A DNA stretch of 64,000 nt from an uncultured Bacteroidales bacterium (lineage in GTDB: Bacteria > Bacteroidota > Bacteroidia > Bacteroidales > Bacteroidaceae), in NCBI GenBank assembly GCA_902768125.1, contig CACXKA010000006.1, positions 234,011 through 298,010 on the forward strand. Reading direction: 5' to 3'. Both the position numbers and the translations under genes were made by a program. Under the pieces are notes generated by a model. That model was given only the letters and a program-made list of their open reading frames with translations, did no database searches and was not told the origin of the DNA. Below are positions 197-63,355 of this stretch, in pieces. Position 1 is the stretch's first letter. Every line of letters starts with the position of its first letter.

Positions 197-254
197 AAAA
201 CCTGAATGTTTTCACAACGGAATAATCCTTATTGTGATTTGCTTCAAATTAGGA
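170..254 (-). ncRNA. tracrRNA of the type II-C system
   Basis: The minus strand from about 253 to 232 carries an anti-repeat that pairs with the first 23 bases of the CRISPR repeat (minus-strand sense, GTTGTGATTTGC...) with one G-U pair and a single bulged T. After the anti-repeat comes a small nexus-like hairpin (GGA-TTAT-TCC, 228-219) and then a terminator hairpin ending near 170, giving an RNA of about 85 bases. The 5' end is inferred from the promoter at 258-289 and could shift by a few bases. The strand matters: it means crRNAs are read from the minus strand of the array. In type II systems tracrRNA guides RNase III processing and binds Cas9. Confidence 0.88.
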
Positions 255-257
255 TGG

Positions 258-289
258 CAAATTTACTACGTTTTTTGAATTTCTCCAAA
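258..289 (-). promoter_or_regulatory. tracrRNA promoter
   Basis: On the minus strand TTTG (289-286) is followed after exactly 20 bases by TAAATTTG (265-258), matching the Bacteroidetes primary-sigma consensus TTTG/TAnnTTTG. The expected start is a few bases downstream, at the beginning of the anti-repeat. Confidence 0.8.
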
Positions 290-4496: not shown

Positions 4497-5420
4497 ATGA
4501 TCAAGAAGACCCTCTATTTCGGAAATCCCATCTACCTCAGTCTCCGCAATTCACAGCTGGTACTGAAGACGCCAGATGCGGATAAATTGGAAGAGTCGTT
4601 CAAACGGGAAGCAGAACGGACGATTCCAATTGAGGATATCGGTGTGGTGGTGCTCGACAACAGACGCATCACCATCACAACAGGAGCAATGGAAGCATTA
4701 CTTGACAACAATTGTGCCATCATCACATGTAACAGCACAAATCTGCCGGTGGGGCTGATGCTGCCTCTGAGTGGAAACACCACACAGAGCGAACGTTTCC
4801 GCAACCAGATAGATGCGTCGTTGCCACTTAAGAAACAACTTTGGCAACAAACCGTCCGACAAAAAATCTTGAACCAGGCTACAGTATTGAACAAGAACAC
4901 AGGAGCAATCGTCAAGAATATGCAGGTATGGGCAAACGAGGTGAAAAGTGGCGACCCAGACAACTTCGAAGCCCGTGCTGCCACTTATTATTGGCGCAAC
5001 CTCTTCCCCACGCTGCCTAACTTCGTGCGTGGACGTGAAGGTGAGCCTCCCAACAATCTTCTTAATTATGGTTATGCCATCCTACGGGCTTGTGTGGCTC
5101 GTGGTTTAGTGGGAAGTGGACTCTTGCCAACCTTGGGCATCCATCACCACAATCGCTACAATGCCTATTGTCTGGCTGATGACATCATGGAACCATATCG
5201 TCCTTTTGTAGACGATCTGGTCATCAACATCATGCAACAATATCCCGATTACAGTGAACTGACACTTAGCATCAAGGCAGCCCTACTCACCATTCCTTCA
5301 CTTGACGTGATGCTAGATGGTAAACGCAGCCCGTTAATGATTGCTGTAGGTCAAACGACCGCAAGCCTCGCCAAATGCTTTAACGGCGAGTTGCGGAAAA
5401 TCTCATACCCTGAATTATAA
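4497..5420 (+). CDS. cas1: Cas1 integrase, type II
   Basis: Spacer-integration nuclease of 307 residues that works as a Cas1-Cas2 complex on new protospacers. The N-terminal beta domain begins MIKKTLYFGNPIYLSL. The alpha-helical catalytic part carries the metal-binding residues expected of the family: Glu158 in FEARAATYYW, the histidines of GIHHHN (216-218) and the acidic cluster LADDIMEPY (228-232). It starts one base after the cas9 stop and is followed by cas2 after 9 bases, so the three genes form one transcript. The catalytic assignments rest on family knowledge, not on a structure. Confidence 0.96.
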   Translation: MIKKTLYFGNPIYLSLRNSQLVLKTPDADKLEESFKREAERTIPIEDIGVVVLDNRRITITTGAMEALLDNNCAIITCNSTNLPVGLMLPLSGNTTQSERFRNQIDASLPLKKQLWQQTVRQKILNQATVLNKNTGAIVKNMQVWANEVKSGDPDNFEARAATYYWRNLFPTLPNFVRGREGEPPNNLLNYGYAILRACVARGLVGSGLLPTLGIHHHNRYNAYCLADDIMEPYRPFVDDLVINIMQQYPDYSELTLSIKAALLTIPSLDVMLDGKRSPLMIAVGQTTASLAKCFNGELRKISYPEL

Positions 5421-5429
5421 ATAAAGAAT

Positions 5430-5771
5430 ATGAGTAGTCTGTCACGTCTTACTGAATACCGAGTTATGTGGATTTTAGTATTCTTCGACTTGCCCACTGA
5501 AACCAAGAAGGACAAAAAACGATACACGGATTTTCGCAAGAAACTCCAATGTGACGGATTCACCATGTTCCAGTTCTCCATCTACATTCGGCACTGTGCC
5601 AGCAGCGAGAATGCAGAGGTACATTTAAAAAGAGTTAAATCTTTCCTTCCTGAGTTCGGAAAGGTCGGATTGCTAACTATAACTGACAAACAGTTCGGAA
5701 ATATGCAACTTTTTTATGGACAGAAACCAACCGAACCGAAAGCACCAGGTGTACAGTTAGAATTATTCTAA
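5430..5771 (+). CDS. cas2: Cas2 adaptation protein
   Basis: Small ferredoxin-fold protein of 113 residues that bridges Cas1 dimers during spacer capture. The first strand WILVFFDLPT carries the conserved Asp20, and the C-terminal beta strand ends VQLELF, as in type II Cas2 proteins. It is the last gene of the operon and is followed at once by a strong hairpin terminator, which separates it from the array. Confidence 0.95.
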   Translation: MSSLSRLTEYRVMWILVFFDLPTETKKDKKRYTDFRKKLQCDGFTMFQFSIYIRHCASSENAEVHLKRVKSFLPEFGKVGLLTITDKQFGNMQLFYGQKPTEPKAPGVQLELF

Positions 5772-5777
5772 AAATAG

Positions 5778-5803
5778 AAAAACCAGCCGTCAAGCTGGTT
5801 TTT
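5778..5803. terminator. bidirectional terminator between cas2 and the array
   Basis: AAAAACCAGC (5778-5787) and GCTGGTTTTT (5794-5803) form a perfect 10-base stem with loop CGTCAA. Because it has A on one side and T on the other it can stop transcription from both sides: the cas operon arriving on the plus strand and crRNA precursors arriving on the minus strand. Confidence 0.85.
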
Positions 5804-5880
5804 CCATGCCATATTCCCTTCTTTTTTATTTTCTAATTTCACCTACAACATCTTGTTAATCTGCAATTTACAAAGATTGT
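5804..5880. other. AT-rich spacer at the cas2 end of the array
   Basis: Seventy-seven bases of mostly A and T with no gene. It could be a leader for spacer integration, but crRNA transcription appears to run toward it and not away from it, so the role is open. Confidence 0.35.
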
Positions 5881-8230
5881 GGTGTATATGACTCTGCAAA
5901 GATACTAATTTGAAAGCAAATCACAACCAGAGTGGCTCTCCATCGCATCACGGATGCGGTGTATATGACTCTGCAAAGATACTAATTTGAAAGCAAATCA
6001 CAACGTCAGAGCCATACGGCTCACCAGTTAGTGGGGTGTATATGACTCTGCAAAGATACTAATTTGAAAGCAAATCACAACTCCCAACATTCAGCTGAGC
6101 GTGAAGGACACGGTGTATATGACTCTGCAAAGATACTAATTTGAAAGCAAATCACAACTGACCGAGGTGGATATGGAGCGCACCTATTGGTGTATATGAC
6201 TCTGCAAAGATACTAATTTGAAAGCAAATCACAACTGGTGTCTTGTTGCCCTTGCTGTCGGTCATGGTGTATATGACTCTGCAAAGATACTAATTTGAAA
6301 GCAAATCACAACGGCATAATGCTAATCTTTTAACTGTTAAAGGTGTATATGACTCTGCAAAGATACTAATTTGAAAGCAAATCACAACACGTTTCATTTT
6401 GTTATCTCGATTGTTTATGGTGTATATGACTCTGCAAAGATACTAATTTGAAAGCAAATCACAACAAGACAGTTCTTGACATTCGCTACGAAATTGGTGT
6501 ATATGACTCTGCAAAGATACTAATTTGAAAGCAAATCACAACGGCTGCTTGTGCCACACGCAGCCTTACATCGGTGTATATGACTCTGCAAAGATACTAA
6601 TTTGAAAGCAAATCACAACTTCGTTCAGGACAATCTCTTGTGAGGATACGGTGTATATGACTCTGCAAAGATACTAATTTGAAAGCAAATCACAACTTGC
6701 GGCTAAAACCAAAGCGGAGGCACGGCGGTGTATATGACTCTGCAAAGATACTAATTTGAAAGCAAATCACAACTCTCCTTACACTCCTGTTTGGCAACAG
6801 TCAGGTGTATATGACTCTGCAAAGATACTAATTTGAAAGCAAATCACAACGGTTATTAAATGTCGCTGCTGGATGGTGTTGGTGTATATGACTCTGCAAA
6901 GATACTAATTTGAAAGCAAATCACAACGGAATCCGTTCATCGCCACCAGTTCAAAGGGTGTATATGACTCTGCAAAGATACTAATTTGAAAGCAAATCAC
7001 AACAGGGTAGCCTCTGTTCAGATTAAAACATTCGGTGTATATGACTCTGCAAAGATACTAATTTGAAAGCAAATCACAACCTGCTTGCCATCGCTATGCT
7101 CATTGCGGTGGTGTATATGACTCTGCAAAGATACTAATTTGAAAGCAAATCACAACACCCAGTCCGCAGTCCTCGAAGAGTGCGAAGGTGTATATGACTC
7201 TGCAAAGATACTAATTTGAAAGCAAATCACAACGATGATGCCGATACATTAAACGGACGGTTGGGTGTATATGACTCTGCAAAGATACTAATTTGAAAGC
7301 AAATCACAACAGCAGCCGCCAACAGGTCTTGCGTTTCCTGGTGTATATGACTCTGCAAAGATACTAATTTGAAAGCAAATCACAACGCATCGACGTGGAT
7401 TGTGGCTGCACCAACCGGTGTATATGACTCTGCAAAGATACTAATTTGAAAGCAAATCACAACAAATGTTAAAAAGTACCAAATATTACACTTGGTGTAT
7501 ATGACTCTGCAAAGATACTAATTTGAAAGCAAATCACAACGGCCCGTTCACCGTCCCCTTGTTTTCCATGGGTGTATATGACTCTGCAAAGATACTAATT
7601 TGAAAGCAAATCACAACGCATCGTTTTTGATGAACGAAAGTGATAAGGGTGTATATGACTCTGCAAAGATACTAATTTGAAAGCAAATCACAACGAGATG
7701 CCTCGGCTATACAACCTAAGCTTGGTGTATATGACTCTGCAAAGATACTAATTTGAAAGCAAATCACAACGTTAAGATTAAATCAGCTCCATATTTCACG
7801 GTGTATATGACTCTGCAAAGATACTAATTTGAAAGCAAATCACAACAGAAGCCACCCCACTTGTTGGTCAAGCCGTGGTGTATATGACTCTGCAAAGATA
7901 CTAATTTGAAAGCAAATCACAACTCCGTGCTCGAACACCGTCACCCACCGGTCGGTGTATATGACTCTGCAAAGATACTAATTTGAAAGCAAATCACAAC
8001 ATGTTTGGCATACAACTTATCCACATCATAGGTGTATATGACTCTGCAAAGATACTAATTTGAAAGCAAATCACAACTACGTATGCTACGATGAAGATGC
8101 AACAGGGGGTGTATATGACTCTGCAAAGATACTAATTTGAAAGCAAATCACAACAGTGGCGACTCTGCTAAAATCGGTTCAAGGGTGTATATGACTCTGC
8201 AAAGATACTAATTTGAAAGCAAATCACAAC
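5881..8230 (-). CRISPR. type II-C CRISPR array, 31 repeats and 30 spacers
   Basis: Thirty-one copies of a 47-base repeat (plus strand: begins GGTGTATATGACTCTG, ends GCAAATCACAAC) separated by 30 spacers, 23 of 30 bases and 7 of 29. I see no mismatch in any copy, including both terminal ones. The strand is set to minus because the tracrRNA anti-repeat and an in-repeat promoter both read on that strand; there the repeat begins GTTGTGATTTGC, as in other Bacteroidetes II-C arrays. No spacer matches other sequence in this window by eye. Uniform repeats and a long array suggest recent activity. Confidence 0.98.
8200..8229 (-). promoter_or_regulatory. promoter inside each CRISPR repeat (last copy shown)
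   Basis: On the minus strand each repeat has TTG at repeat positions 2-4, 19 bases, then TATCTTTG at positions 24-31, a full match to the Bacteroidetes TTG/TAnnTTTG promoter. The predicted start is at about repeat position 36, about 11 bases before the next spacer. The same elements occur in all 31 copies. Family knowledge: Neisseria II-C repeats carry such promoters. Confidence 0.6.
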
Positions 8231-9287: not shown

Positions 9288-9329
9288 ATACCGAACGGTC
9301 ACCTAAAGTTTTCCCCAAAAGTCTCGATG

Positions 9330-9360
9330 TAATGACACTAACTTGAAAACAAATCATAAC
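9330..9360 (-). repeat. decayed orphan CRISPR repeat
   Basis: On the minus strand the first 31 bases of the array repeat are matched with six substitutions (positions 4, 12, 19, 25, 28, 31). The -7 promoter box TATCTTTG has become TGTCATTA. It lies 1.1 kb from the array, with the antitoxin-toxin pair between them. Confidence 0.75.
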
Positions 9361-9389
9361 GCCACCAATGTCTTTCCATCGGTGGCGTT
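9358..9389 (-). terminator. hairpin downstream of the sensor kinase
   Basis: AACGCCACC (9358-9366) and GGTGGCGTT (9381-9389) form a perfect 9-base stem with a 14-base loop. On the minus strand it is followed by ATGATTTGTTTTC, a weak T-rich tail that belongs to the decayed CRISPR repeat. It is placed to end the kinase transcript. Confidence 0.5.
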
Positions 9390-9423
9390 ATAGATGATTG
9401 TATTTGAGGGGAGGGTCAAAAAG

Positions 9424-13819: not shown

Positions 13820-15841
13820 ATGTTCGCAGACATCATACTTCCTATACCATTCGACAGCTTCACATACCTCGTTCCTCCCTCGATGGAGGCAAGAGTGATG
13901 CGAGGCTGTCGAGTTGTTGTGCCCCTTGGCAAGAACAAAATCTACACAGGCGTGGTGGCTCGCACACACGACAATGCCCCACAGGGCGTGGAGATGAAAT
14001 CGGTGATGGAAGTACTTGATGAACAGCCTGTTGTCAACGAGCAGCAGTTCACTTTCTGGCAATGGATTGCAAACTATTATCTCTGCCCTATCGGCGATGT
14101 GATGAAAGCTGCCCTGCCTGGTGCAATGAAACCAAAGGATGAAGCTGCCCTGAAGGAATCCACTCGCAAACGAAGAGGTTCCAATACCCTCTTTCAAACC
14201 TCAAACCTTCCATCTCAAATCTCAAACCTTTCTCCTGCCCAGCAGAAGGCATACGAGGAGATTGAGCACTCTTTCTTGACGAAAAACGTCACTTTGCTGC
14301 ATGGGGTCACCTCCTCTGGCAAGACCGAACTTTATATCCACCTCATCAGTAAATATCTTGCTGAAGGCAAGCAAGTGCTTTATCTCTTGCCTGAAATTGC
14401 GCTGACCACGCAAATCACAGAAAGGCTTCGTCGTTTCTTTGGGGAAAAGATGGGGGTGTATCACTCCAAATTCACTGATATACAACGTCTGGAGGTGTAC
14501 AAGCGTCAAGCCTCCACAGAACCCTACCAACTCATCTTGGGTGTGCGTTCCAGCATCTTCCTCCCTTTTCAGAATCTTGGTCTTGTCATTGTGGATGAGG
14601 AACATGAGCAGAGCTACAAACAGCAGGAACCTGCCCCACGCTACCACGCAAGGAATGCTGGCATCATGCTGGCAAAGATGTTTGGCGCCAAGACCTTGCT
14701 CGGCACAGCCACTCCCTCCTTCGAAGTATATCATCTGGCACACAAGGGACAATATGGCTATGTGCAGCTCACCCAACGATACCGAGACATGCAACTGCCT
14801 ACCATTGAGGTGGTTGACACCAAGGAAGCCAAGCGCAAGAAATTGATGAAGGGCGTCTTCTCGCCCCGTCTGATCGAGGTGATGCAAGGGGCATTGGAAC
14901 GGAAAGAGCAAATCATCCTGTTCCAGAACCGACGAGGCTTTTCATCCTTCATCGAATGCAAGACCTGCGGTTGGGTGCCCAGTTGTCCGCATTGCGACGT
15001 GACGCTGACGCTCCACAAGAAGACCTCCACCCTCATCTGCCACTATTGCGGCTACACCACCCAGATTCCAGGGAAATGTCCTGCCTGCGAGGAAAGCAAG
15101 TTCACCGACATCGGTACTGGAACGGAAAAGATTGAGGAGCAGATTCAACAGCTGTTTCCTGATGCCACCACCTTGAGGATGGACCTTGACACCGCACAGA
15201 CACGCCTGCAAGCCGAACGCATCATCAGCGACTTCTCTGTCCACAAAGCCGACATCCTCATCGGCACCCAGATGGTAACCAAGGGATTGGATTTCGATCG
15301 AGTGTCGGTGGTGGGTATCCTCGATGCCGACACGATGCTGAACCTGCCCGATTTCCGCAGTCATGAACGCACTTTCCAGACACTCAGTCAAGTGGCTGGA
15401 CGTGCCGGACGCAACCAGACATCGGGATACGTCATCCTCCAAACACGCTCTGCTGACAGCGACATCATCCGTCAAATCACCCAAGGTGACTATTGGCAGA
15501 TGTTCTACACACAAATGCTTGAACGCCAAGCATTTCATTATCCTCCCTTCCAACGCCTCATCTATGTGTATCTGCGCCACAAAGATGACGAACTGTTGGA
15601 GCACCTTGCAGACGATATGGCAGACAAGCTCCGCAAGGTGTTTGGAGAAAGGGTGCTGGGTCCTGACCGCCCTCCTGTGGCACGCATCCACTCCCTCTAC
15701 ATTCGCAAGATCATGCTCAAGATTGAGCCACACACCTCGACCGACAAAGTGCGCCAACATCTCATTGCCATCCAGCAGCAAATGCTCGCGATGCCCATCG
15801 CCAAAAACCTCAACATTTACTACGACGTTGACCCCCTGTAA
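13820..15841 (+). CDS. priA: primosomal helicase PriA, short form
   Basis: Replication-restart helicase of 673 residues that reloads the replisome at stalled forks. The 3'-end-binding domain is at 1-100 (MFADIILPIPFDSFTYLVP). The helicase has Walker A GVTSSGKTE, Walker B VDEEH, and a zinc region with eight cysteines in CKTCGW, CPHCD, CHYCGY and CPACEE. Between the first domain and the helicase only about 30 residues remain (residues 110-140), so the winged-helix domain found in typical PriA seems absent; the linker codes FQTSNLPSQISNLSP from a repetitive TCAAACC-rich stretch. The ATG at 13820 is preferred over the TTG at 13817. Confidence 0.93.
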   Translation: MFADIILPIPFDSFTYLVPPSMEARVMRGCRVVVPLGKNKIYTGVVARTHDNAPQGVEMKSVMEVLDEQPVVNEQQFTFWQWIANYYLCPIGDVMKAALPGAMKPKDEAALKESTRKRRGSNTLFQTSNLPSQISNLSPAQQKAYEEIEHSFLTKNVTLLHGVTSSGKTELYIHLISKYLAEGKQVLYLLPEIALTTQITERLRRFFGEKMGVYHSKFTDIQRLEVYKRQASTEPYQLILGVRSSIFLPFQNLGLVIVDEEHEQSYKQQEPAPRYHARNAGIMLAKMFGAKTLLGTATPSFEVYHLAHKGQYGYVQLTQRYRDMQLPTIEVVDTKEAKRKKLMKGVFSPRLIEVMQGALERKEQIILFQNRRGFSSFIECKTCGWVPSCPHCDVTLTLHKKTSTLICHYCGYTTQIPGKCPACEESKFTDIGTGTEKIEEQIQQLFPDATTLRMDLDTAQTRLQAERIISDFSVHKADILIGTQMVTKGLDFDRVSVVGILDADTMLNLPDFRSHERTFQTLSQVAGRAGRNQTSGYVILQTRSADSDIIRQITQGDYWQMFYTQMLERQAFHYPPFQRLIYVYLRHKDDELLEHLADDMADKLRKVFGERVLGPDRPPVARIHSLYIRKIMLKIEPHTSTDKVRQHLIAIQQQMLAMPIAKNLNIYYDVDPL

Positions 15842-62544: not shown

Positions 62545-63275
62545 CTTTCTGGGATCATCTCGAAGAATTGCGTCGGGTACTGCTACGATGCATTGTTGTC
62601 GTGGCAGTATTTGCCGTCCTCGCCTTTTTTTTCAAGGACGAGGTGTTCTTTGTCATCTTTGCTCCCAAAAGCCCTGATTTCCTTCCAGCCATCTTTGGAC
62701 ATTCCCCAGAGATTCAGCTCATCAACACAGAACTGACGCGTCAGTTTGTTGTCCACATGATGACCAGTTTGTATGTGGGTGTCATCGTGACAGCCCCCTA
62801 CATCATCTACGAACTGTATCGTTTCATCTCCCCTGGCTTATACGAAAATGAGCGGCGCTATTCCACGCCGCTCGTCATTACTTCCTATGTGATGTTCATG
62901 CTGGGATTGCTCTTCAGCTACTTCATCCTTTTCCCCATCACCTTCCGATTCCTGGCAGGTTATCAGGTGGACACGCAGGTGGAGAACCTTATCAGCTTGG
63001 AAAGCTACATCGACACGCTCATTTTCCTCTCCCTTGCGATGGGCATCATCTTTGAGATTCCCATCCTCTCCTGGTTGCTCGGACGCTTGGGCATCCTCCA
63101 TCGTGAAGACATGCAGCAATATCGCCGTCATGCCATCGTGGCGATTCTGGTCATCGCCGCCATCATCACCCCCACCTCCGATGTCATCACCCTCTCCATT
63201 GTCAGCCTCCCCATGTACCTGCTCTACGAGGTGAGCATTCTCCTCGTGCCCGCGAACCATCGACTTTCCAATTAG
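62541..63275 (+). CDS. tatC: twin-arginine translocation protein TatC
   Basis: Membrane protein of 244 residues with six helices. It begins [16 protein letters not shown], the TatC signature that binds twin-arginine signals, and has the [12 protein letters not shown] loop (the FxxPxLxxxE motif) and [22 protein letters not shown] near the end. Its ATG overlaps the tatA stop. Together they export folded proteins. Confidence 0.96.
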
Positions 63276-63355
63276 TATCTTAGCAAAGTCATATACACTC
63301 TCGATCACAACATAAACAAACTGCCAACTCTGATAAGAAACGCTGAAGAACGAAC

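Follow-up and report, generated by a model that had tools for sequence, protein, structure and literature searches.

The CRISPR array of an uncultured Bacteroidales bacterium (contig CACXKA010000006.1) has its crRNA strand, as judged by sequence, opposite to its cas genes. An earlier note on the window (the whole stretch of 64,000 nucleotides that was analysed) had proposed that every repeat holds a complete promoter of the phylum on the crRNA strand. By comparing related arrays, we could consider the position of the -7 box, its conservation, the lack of tracrRNA pairing over most of it and its retention in the oldest repeats, and on these grounds we regard it as highly probable that every repeat carries its own -7-box promoter, which would start RNA about 12 nt before each spacer.

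The locus and its repeats

In the window, cas9, cas1 and cas2 stand back to back and are the only cas genes, and a gap of 109 nt separates cas2 from the array (Table 1). With these three genes only, a tracrRNA gene near cas9 and an array read towards the leader, the locus has, by its sequence, the features of a type II-C CRISPR-Cas9 system of the Bacteroidota, probably of the Bacteroidaceae in a wide sense. A scan of the window against Rfam gave no matches.

Table 1. Coordinates of the CRISPR-Cas9 locus and of its candidate transcription signals in the window
Feature	Position	Strand	Remarks
tracrRNA anti-repeat	231..255	-	pairs with repeat positions 1-23 (one bulge), and two more pairs past a mismatch
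TAAATTTG, candidate -7 box of the tracrRNA gene	258..265	-	precedes the anti-repeat by 2 nt; TTG at 286-288 with a spacing of 20
cas9, 1376 aa	365..4495	+	NCBIfam TIGR01865, 2.3e-158
cas1, type II	4497..5420	+	NCBIfam TIGR03639, 2.1e-93
cas2	5430..5771	+	NCBIfam TIGR01573, 1.2e-18
Leader between cas2 and array	5772..5880	not assigned	from position; putative downstream end of crRNA transcription
Terminator-like hairpin in leader	5777..5804	-	possible stop for crRNA transcripts ahead of antisense reading of cas2; not listed by a ready-made terminator scan
CRISPR array	5881..8230	-	31 identical 47-nt repeats, 30 spacers of 29-30 nt; opposite strand to the cas genes
Predicted transcription start, first unit	8192..8196	-	at about positions 35-39 of the repeat, with 9-13 nt left to the spacer; offset equal in all repeats; from the box and the tracrRNA distance
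Candidate -7 box TATCTTTG, oldest repeat	8200..8207	-	repeat positions 24-31; found in each of the 31 repeats, 5897-5904 being the last copy
TTG, candidate -33 element (weak)	8227..8229	-	repeat positions 2-4; present, not diagnostic

As the earlier note had described, each repeat (31/31, minus strand) reads TTG at positions 2-4, then 19 bases, then TATCTTTG at positions 24-31, which in all 31 copies agrees with TAnnTTTG, the -7 box of sigma-ABfr of the Bacteroidota. The pattern TTG-N19-TAnnTTTG has 38 sites in the whole window, 31 in the array and 7 elsewhere (0.84 expected from whole-window shuffles); as the 31 copies are one sequence copied, the array counts as a single observation and the weight of the argument rests on related arrays. 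The repeat may be read as a composite, in which positions 1-23 would pair with the tracrRNA and positions 24-31 would form the -7 box, followed by positions 32-41 that vary widely among relatives; by eye, its last bases are an imperfect inverted copy of its first bases.

The nearest named relative, an uncultured Prevotellaceae contig (L099), has the same repeat and no spacer in common, and carries a lone perfect copy of the repeat (14582-14628), 1.5 kb past its array. Two further repeat-like elements were seen in the window: a lone fragment at 63265-63300 (plus strand, 55 kb from the array) that agrees in 27/30 bases with the 3' part of the repeat and lies right at the end of a frame that we take to be tatC, and a degenerate element without TTTG at 9328-9360 (minus strand, 1.1 kb upstream of the array), which overlaps a 15-nt inverted repeat at 9356-9391.

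TAnnTTTG as a signal of the host

Judged by its distribution, TAnnTTTG is a signal of the host in this window: it occurs in sense in 10 of the 21 upstream regions (11 sense and 7 antisense sites, shuffle 2.3), and its density is 2.65/kb in upstream regions versus 0.26/kb in coding DNA. A generic sigma-70 scan, which is unsuited to Bacteroidota promoters, found 4 sites where 8.8 were expected and was set aside.

Conservation of the -7 box among related repeats

Related arrays were collected from a phylum sample (59 of 395 genomes over the cut-off), 80 named loci and a family sample (129 of 399 genomes), in which 100 of 133 cas1 places were analysed and 80 of these 100 gave arrays; the places left out were 3 own or duplicate ones, some 17 close to a contig end and some 13 of lower rank. 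Among the 126 distinct repeats of 44-49 nt from all samples, 91 contain TAnnTTTG exactly, 25 with one mismatch and 10 with more, counts that are inflated by the relatedness of the repeats. The conservation scan that the earlier note had called for came out in favour of the -7 box in the Bacteroidales (a set made of the window, the named loci and the family sample, including one MAG titled Eubacteriales), where 87 of 100 distinct repeats have the exact box and 8 have it with one mismatch; the remaining 5 are at least two mismatches away, and two of these belong to arrays as long as 18 and 21 repeats. Outside the Bacteroidales the agreement is looser (4/26 exact, 17 with one mismatch), and there the reverse-strand control is weak, as 11 of 28 reverse strands differ from the box by at most one base.

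In the first Bacteroidales set, the exact box was found in 48 of 55 distinct repeats (shuffles 0.5; reverse strand 0/55). This set omits arrays with a consensus below 46 nt (L151, L170) and the oddly trimmed L100 and L156, among which, by eye, L151, L100 and L156 have TAnnTTTG and L170 has TAATTTAG, and it includes two further odd arrays (L111, L159) entered by hand. Its fixed box bases stand out from their surroundings, which are less conserved before the box and nearly free after it (0.2-0.8 bits for the nine positions past the box versus 1.1-1.8 for positions 28-31), and the nn positions vary. Over all samples, the exact box starts at position 23-27 in 90/91 repeats, and its nn bases are TC (72), CC (13), AC (4), TT (1) and AG (1). 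A -7 box of the primary sigma of the phylum on the crRNA strand of each repeat is thus well supported by these comparisons as a conserved and apparently selected element.

The tracrRNA gene and its pairing with the repeat

An anti-repeat was identified in 50 of 59 loci, with at least one pick (L099) false by eye; L071 also has an unrelated 33-nt repeat and L086 a further array fragment, both of which the survey left out. An exact TAnnTTTG occurs at the start of the anti-repeat in 40 of the 50 (shuffle 1.7), and 22 of these 40 boxes sit 4-5 nt before it (mode 4 nt), a distance that fits a start about 5 nt past the box and would put the crRNA start near repeat position 36; TTG stands at 19 or 20 nt from the box in 26/40. 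In the same 50/59 loci, the paired fraction is 0.80 at repeat position 24, 0.50 at position 25 and at most 0.30 from position 27. The conservation of the box is not explained by tracrRNA pairing, which declines from position 25. Box variants matched between repeat and tracrRNA gene outside the Bacteroidales looked suggestive by eye in L080, L091 and L165, not in others, and are not claimed.

The oldest repeats

In the proposed direction of transcription, the oldest (leader-distal) repeat would be the first to be read; it would have to start the first crRNA and would not need to pair with the tracrRNA. We considered the oldest repeat of 71 arrays with the exact box, contig-end arrays and duplicates being excluded, and 69 of them keep TAnnTTTG while the tracrRNA-pairing half decays. 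The earlier note had suggested looking for loss of the box in degenerate terminal repeats, and what is found at these decayed ends is its retention. True loss concerns one array (L261); in L110 and L112, unrelated sequence intrudes into the box yet again supplies TA at the right place.

Changes affect 408/1437 sites in the 5' part of the repeat, 26/213 directly ahead of the box (three bases), 3/426 at its six fixed positions, 14/142 at nn and 30/710 in the next ten bases (Fisher 1.2e-5). An earlier region count omitted L090. Without the doubtful array L248, which was omitted from part of these tests, the fixed positions have 1/420 changes versus 13/140 at nn (p 1e-7). The oldest-repeat comparison suffers less from the relatedness of the arrays than the repeat counts do. 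These site-level P values are to be read with the reservation that mismatches in one array are not independent, that L106 is an insertion shifting the tail and that L110 and L112 resemble one event. At array level, one site per array gave a mean P of 0.003-0.005, and a stricter permutation on 14 arrays, without the insertion case and near-duplicates, gave P 0.0005-0.0009. As to other parts of the arrays, 97 mismatches were counted in 1715 interior repeats of the first sample, and 22 in 86 leader-side repeats, 20 of them from one doubtful extension (L145). These data suggest that evolution protects the box while the rest of the repeat decays.

They also bear on the idea that the box is functionless and conserved by common ancestry alone. 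The repeats are indeed related, and 75 of the 91 exact boxes start at position 24; nevertheless the bases past the box have diverged, and in the oldest repeats the fixed positions resist change as their neighbours do not, so that we give ancestry alone very little credence.

The TTG at positions 2-4

The published -33 element of the sigma-ABfr promoter is TTTG (in the parts of PMC7366714 consulted). At this place, 19 bases from the box, a spacing like the 19-20 of 26/40 tracrRNA genes, the repeat reads GTTG, three of its four bases, so that the full primary-sigma consensus claimed for the repeat is overstated in its -33 half, the -7 box being exact. The TTG itself is present at positions 2-4 in 125 of the 126 distinct 44-49-nt repeats; every one of the 16 box-less 36-nt repeats from this family has it as well, as do 16 of the 21 distinct 36-nt repeats in the phylum sample and, at positions 2-4, 3 of 6 arrays of other phyla, which deprives it of the value as promoter evidence that the earlier note had given it. 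In 36 decayed oldest repeats, TTG was found at spacing 17-22 in 8 (shuffles 5.0) and at spacing 19-20 in 6 (shuffles 1.7, p 0.009). Common in box-less repeats and mostly gone from decayed ones, TTG was rejected as the main promoter signal.

Array direction and arrays without the box

Directions were judged from repeat and anti-repeat sequences. Of 151 arrays with 44-49-nt repeats (between-sample duplicates included), 149 lie downstream of cas1 and have their crRNA on the other strand. A promoter in the leader between cas2 and the array, as in type II-A, does seem by sequence to serve the 16 arrays with 36-nt repeats of the same family described below; in the 47-nt class, whose crRNA strand is opposite to cas1 and whose leader lies downstream, it would give antisense RNA, and we consider such a promoter for this array next to impossible.

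These 16 type II arrays have repeats that start with GTTG and none has the exact box (one at one mismatch). All of them (16/16) are downstream of cas1 and read in the cas1 direction, and 15/16 have an exact TAnnTTTG within 200 nt upstream (shuffle 1.4), 12 of these boxes starting 90-94 nt before the first repeat. They appear as a second type II lineage in the family (L257, L267, L272, L274, L278, L280-L290), most with a leader box at about -91. Box-bearing 47-nt arrays, by comparison, have an upstream box within 200 nt in just 12/69 (shuffle 5.4; versus 15/16, Fisher 1e-8). From this contrast between boxes in the repeat and boxes upstream, the box seems to be placed wherever transcription has to begin.

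One could propose a single external promoter upstream of the oldest repeat, the box then being another RNA or DNA signal, for 5' trimming or for Cas1-Cas2 binding. External promoters may exist in this class, as 4 of 8 box-less 47-nt arrays have TAnnTTTG within 200 nt upstream (shuffle 1.0; p 0.053 versus box-bearing arrays) and one of these four, L270, has TTG-N19-TACCTTTG just before the array. Against it stand the low count of upstream boxes in box-bearing arrays just given and the lack of any TAnnTTTG in the 170 nt upstream of the array of the window. Moreover, a Cas1-Cas2 signal would not protect the box of the oldest repeat, since spacers would be inserted at the other end, and those box positions that do change are the ones left free by the sigma consensus, which argues against a signal other than a promoter. 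We hold this explanation to be improbable, and a promoter in each repeat remains our preferred reading.

The 36-nt repeats of the phylum sample are mixed, with 4 of 21 distinct repeats having exact TAnnTTTG (shuffle 0.25) and 6 having one mismatch, and within 200 nt upstream TAnnTTTG was found in 0 of the 21 arrays (shuffle 1.9). L059, L061-L064 and L087 are 36-nt arrays without the box in the repeat. Twelve plasmid loci were examined and 8 had arrays, 6 from other phyla and 2 from Bacteroidota (L187-L190 had none). Of the two Bacteroidota plasmid arrays, L186 has the exact box and L179 has a 36-nt repeat with TACCTTTC; among the six arrays of other phyla the exact box is absent, one coming within one mismatch, and three of the six end in TACAAT or TATAAT. 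A viral scan with Cas1 gave one locus and no arrays. A GTTCTTTGA-like motif, which we take to resemble the rRNA boxA and which possibly serves antitermination of arrays read from outside, was seen upstream of arrays L221 and L263 and, within one mismatch, in 7 of the 21 phylum-sample 36-nt arrays. Noticed by eye in L221 and L263, it is not general among box-less arrays and is not claimed as a common feature of them.

Terminators and read-through

In 58 of 138 leaders a terminator-like hairpin follows closely on the last repeat (shuffle 0.18), versus 1 of 99 regions upstream of arrays, from which we infer that the leader hairpin would prevent transcription from the array promoters from reaching the cas genes in antisense. 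Within the array of the window, 2 terminators were found where 1.9 were expected, which is chance level. Read-through is therefore likely, more than one promoter may serve the newer spacers farther downstream, and the view that each spacer is its own transcription unit is not borne out.

A variant compatible with our preferred reading is that the repeat promoter is real and mostly gives long multi-unit transcripts, crRNA arising chiefly by read-through. The chance level of terminators within the array and the hairpin in the leader speak for it; against it, C. jejuni accumulates processed units that begin at repeat promoters (PMC3656092, in the parts consulted). We consider this variant possible, though rather unlikely.

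Comparison with known systems

The repeat promoter of Neisseria meningitidis has a different box, placed at the end of the repeat. That this II-C system has a promoter in each repeat, as proposed here, is cited in the consulted parts of PMC5006608 and PMC8092290. In C. jejuni II-C, according to excerpts of PMC3656092, the repeat finishes with an extended -10 box, GGTAAAAT, and transcripts begin at position 5 of the spacer. The present locus is like that of C. jejuni in being type II-C, in having a tracrRNA and in carrying a promoter box in every repeat. It differs in that TAnnTTTG ends 16 nt before the end of the 47-nt repeat, so that the start would fall inside the repeat and leave a constant tag. 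The earlier note had spoken of the same design as in known II-C repeat promoters; with the box at 24-31 of 47 here versus the repeat end in Campylobacter, the layout of Neisseria and Campylobacter (-10 box at the repeat 3' end, start in the spacer) is not what we find.

For Flavobacterium, the portions consulted of PMC8092290 (F. columnare) and PMC10309648 (F. psychrophilum) propose a repeat promoter from a TTG 33 or 35 bp before the spacer and report RNA-seq reads within the arrays, eight in F. columnare; they name only TTG in the repeat, and TAnnTTTG for cas9 alone. The F. columnare repeats are 36 nt long, and the sampled 36-nt repeats that we took to be of that kind are four mismatches from the box. 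A survey of type II-C extra repeats (PMC12080349) found that mutations of the oldest repeat fall mostly within its first 15 nt, and its authors suggest that it must stay a promoter; they explain the decay as blocking a useless crRNA, and the parts examined contain no -7 box and no phylum-specific promoter test. These parts treat repeat promoters as general for II-C, and those of PMC3656092 establish them in C. jejuni. In Riemerella, the sections consulted of PMC5006608 report no promoter in 47-nt repeats, the leader having been searched with a predictor for fruit-fly sites, and those of PMC6008519 report that new spacers enter at the cas2-side leader. For B. thetaiotaomicron VPI-5482, PMC7366714 annotates neither a CRISPR array nor a Cas protein. 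In the literature searched, which covered open papers and a minority of preprints, there was no report of TAnnTTTG inside repeats. Novelty seems to lie in the -7 box and its placement within the repeat, in the fact that it is selectively retained, and in how weak the TTG is.

A model for the expression of the array

In the model that we favour, RNA polymerase would bind each repeat through its sigma factor and start about 12 nt before each spacer, and the precursor would consist of a constant 5' tag, the spacer and the next repeat. The tracrRNA, itself presumably transcribed from the same kind of box, would pair with its part of that repeat for 3' processing. As transcription would proceed towards the leader, new spacers, which would be inserted beside cas2, would arrive with their own promoter. 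Because the box is well inside the repeat, all precursors would share the 5' tag of about 12 nt and initiation would be independent of spacer sequence; we know of no type II system with a constant 5' handle. More tentatively, and with rather less than even confidence, the array promoter of the Bacteroidota might be a movable module in the sigma code of the host, located in the repeats of arrays read towards the leader, in the leader of arrays transcribed in the other direction, and outside the array if its repeats have lost the box, with a common crRNA precursor tag of about 12 nt that is maybe bound or trimmed.

If true, this finding would explain the expression of II-C arrays in a large group of bacteria from the gut, rumen and mouth, and the direction of an array and its start site would become readable from sequence. 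It questions the published idea that TTG is the repeat promoter signal of the Bacteroidota. Promoters embedded in repeats would use the sigma code of the phylum itself, and each stored virus memory could be read out separately.
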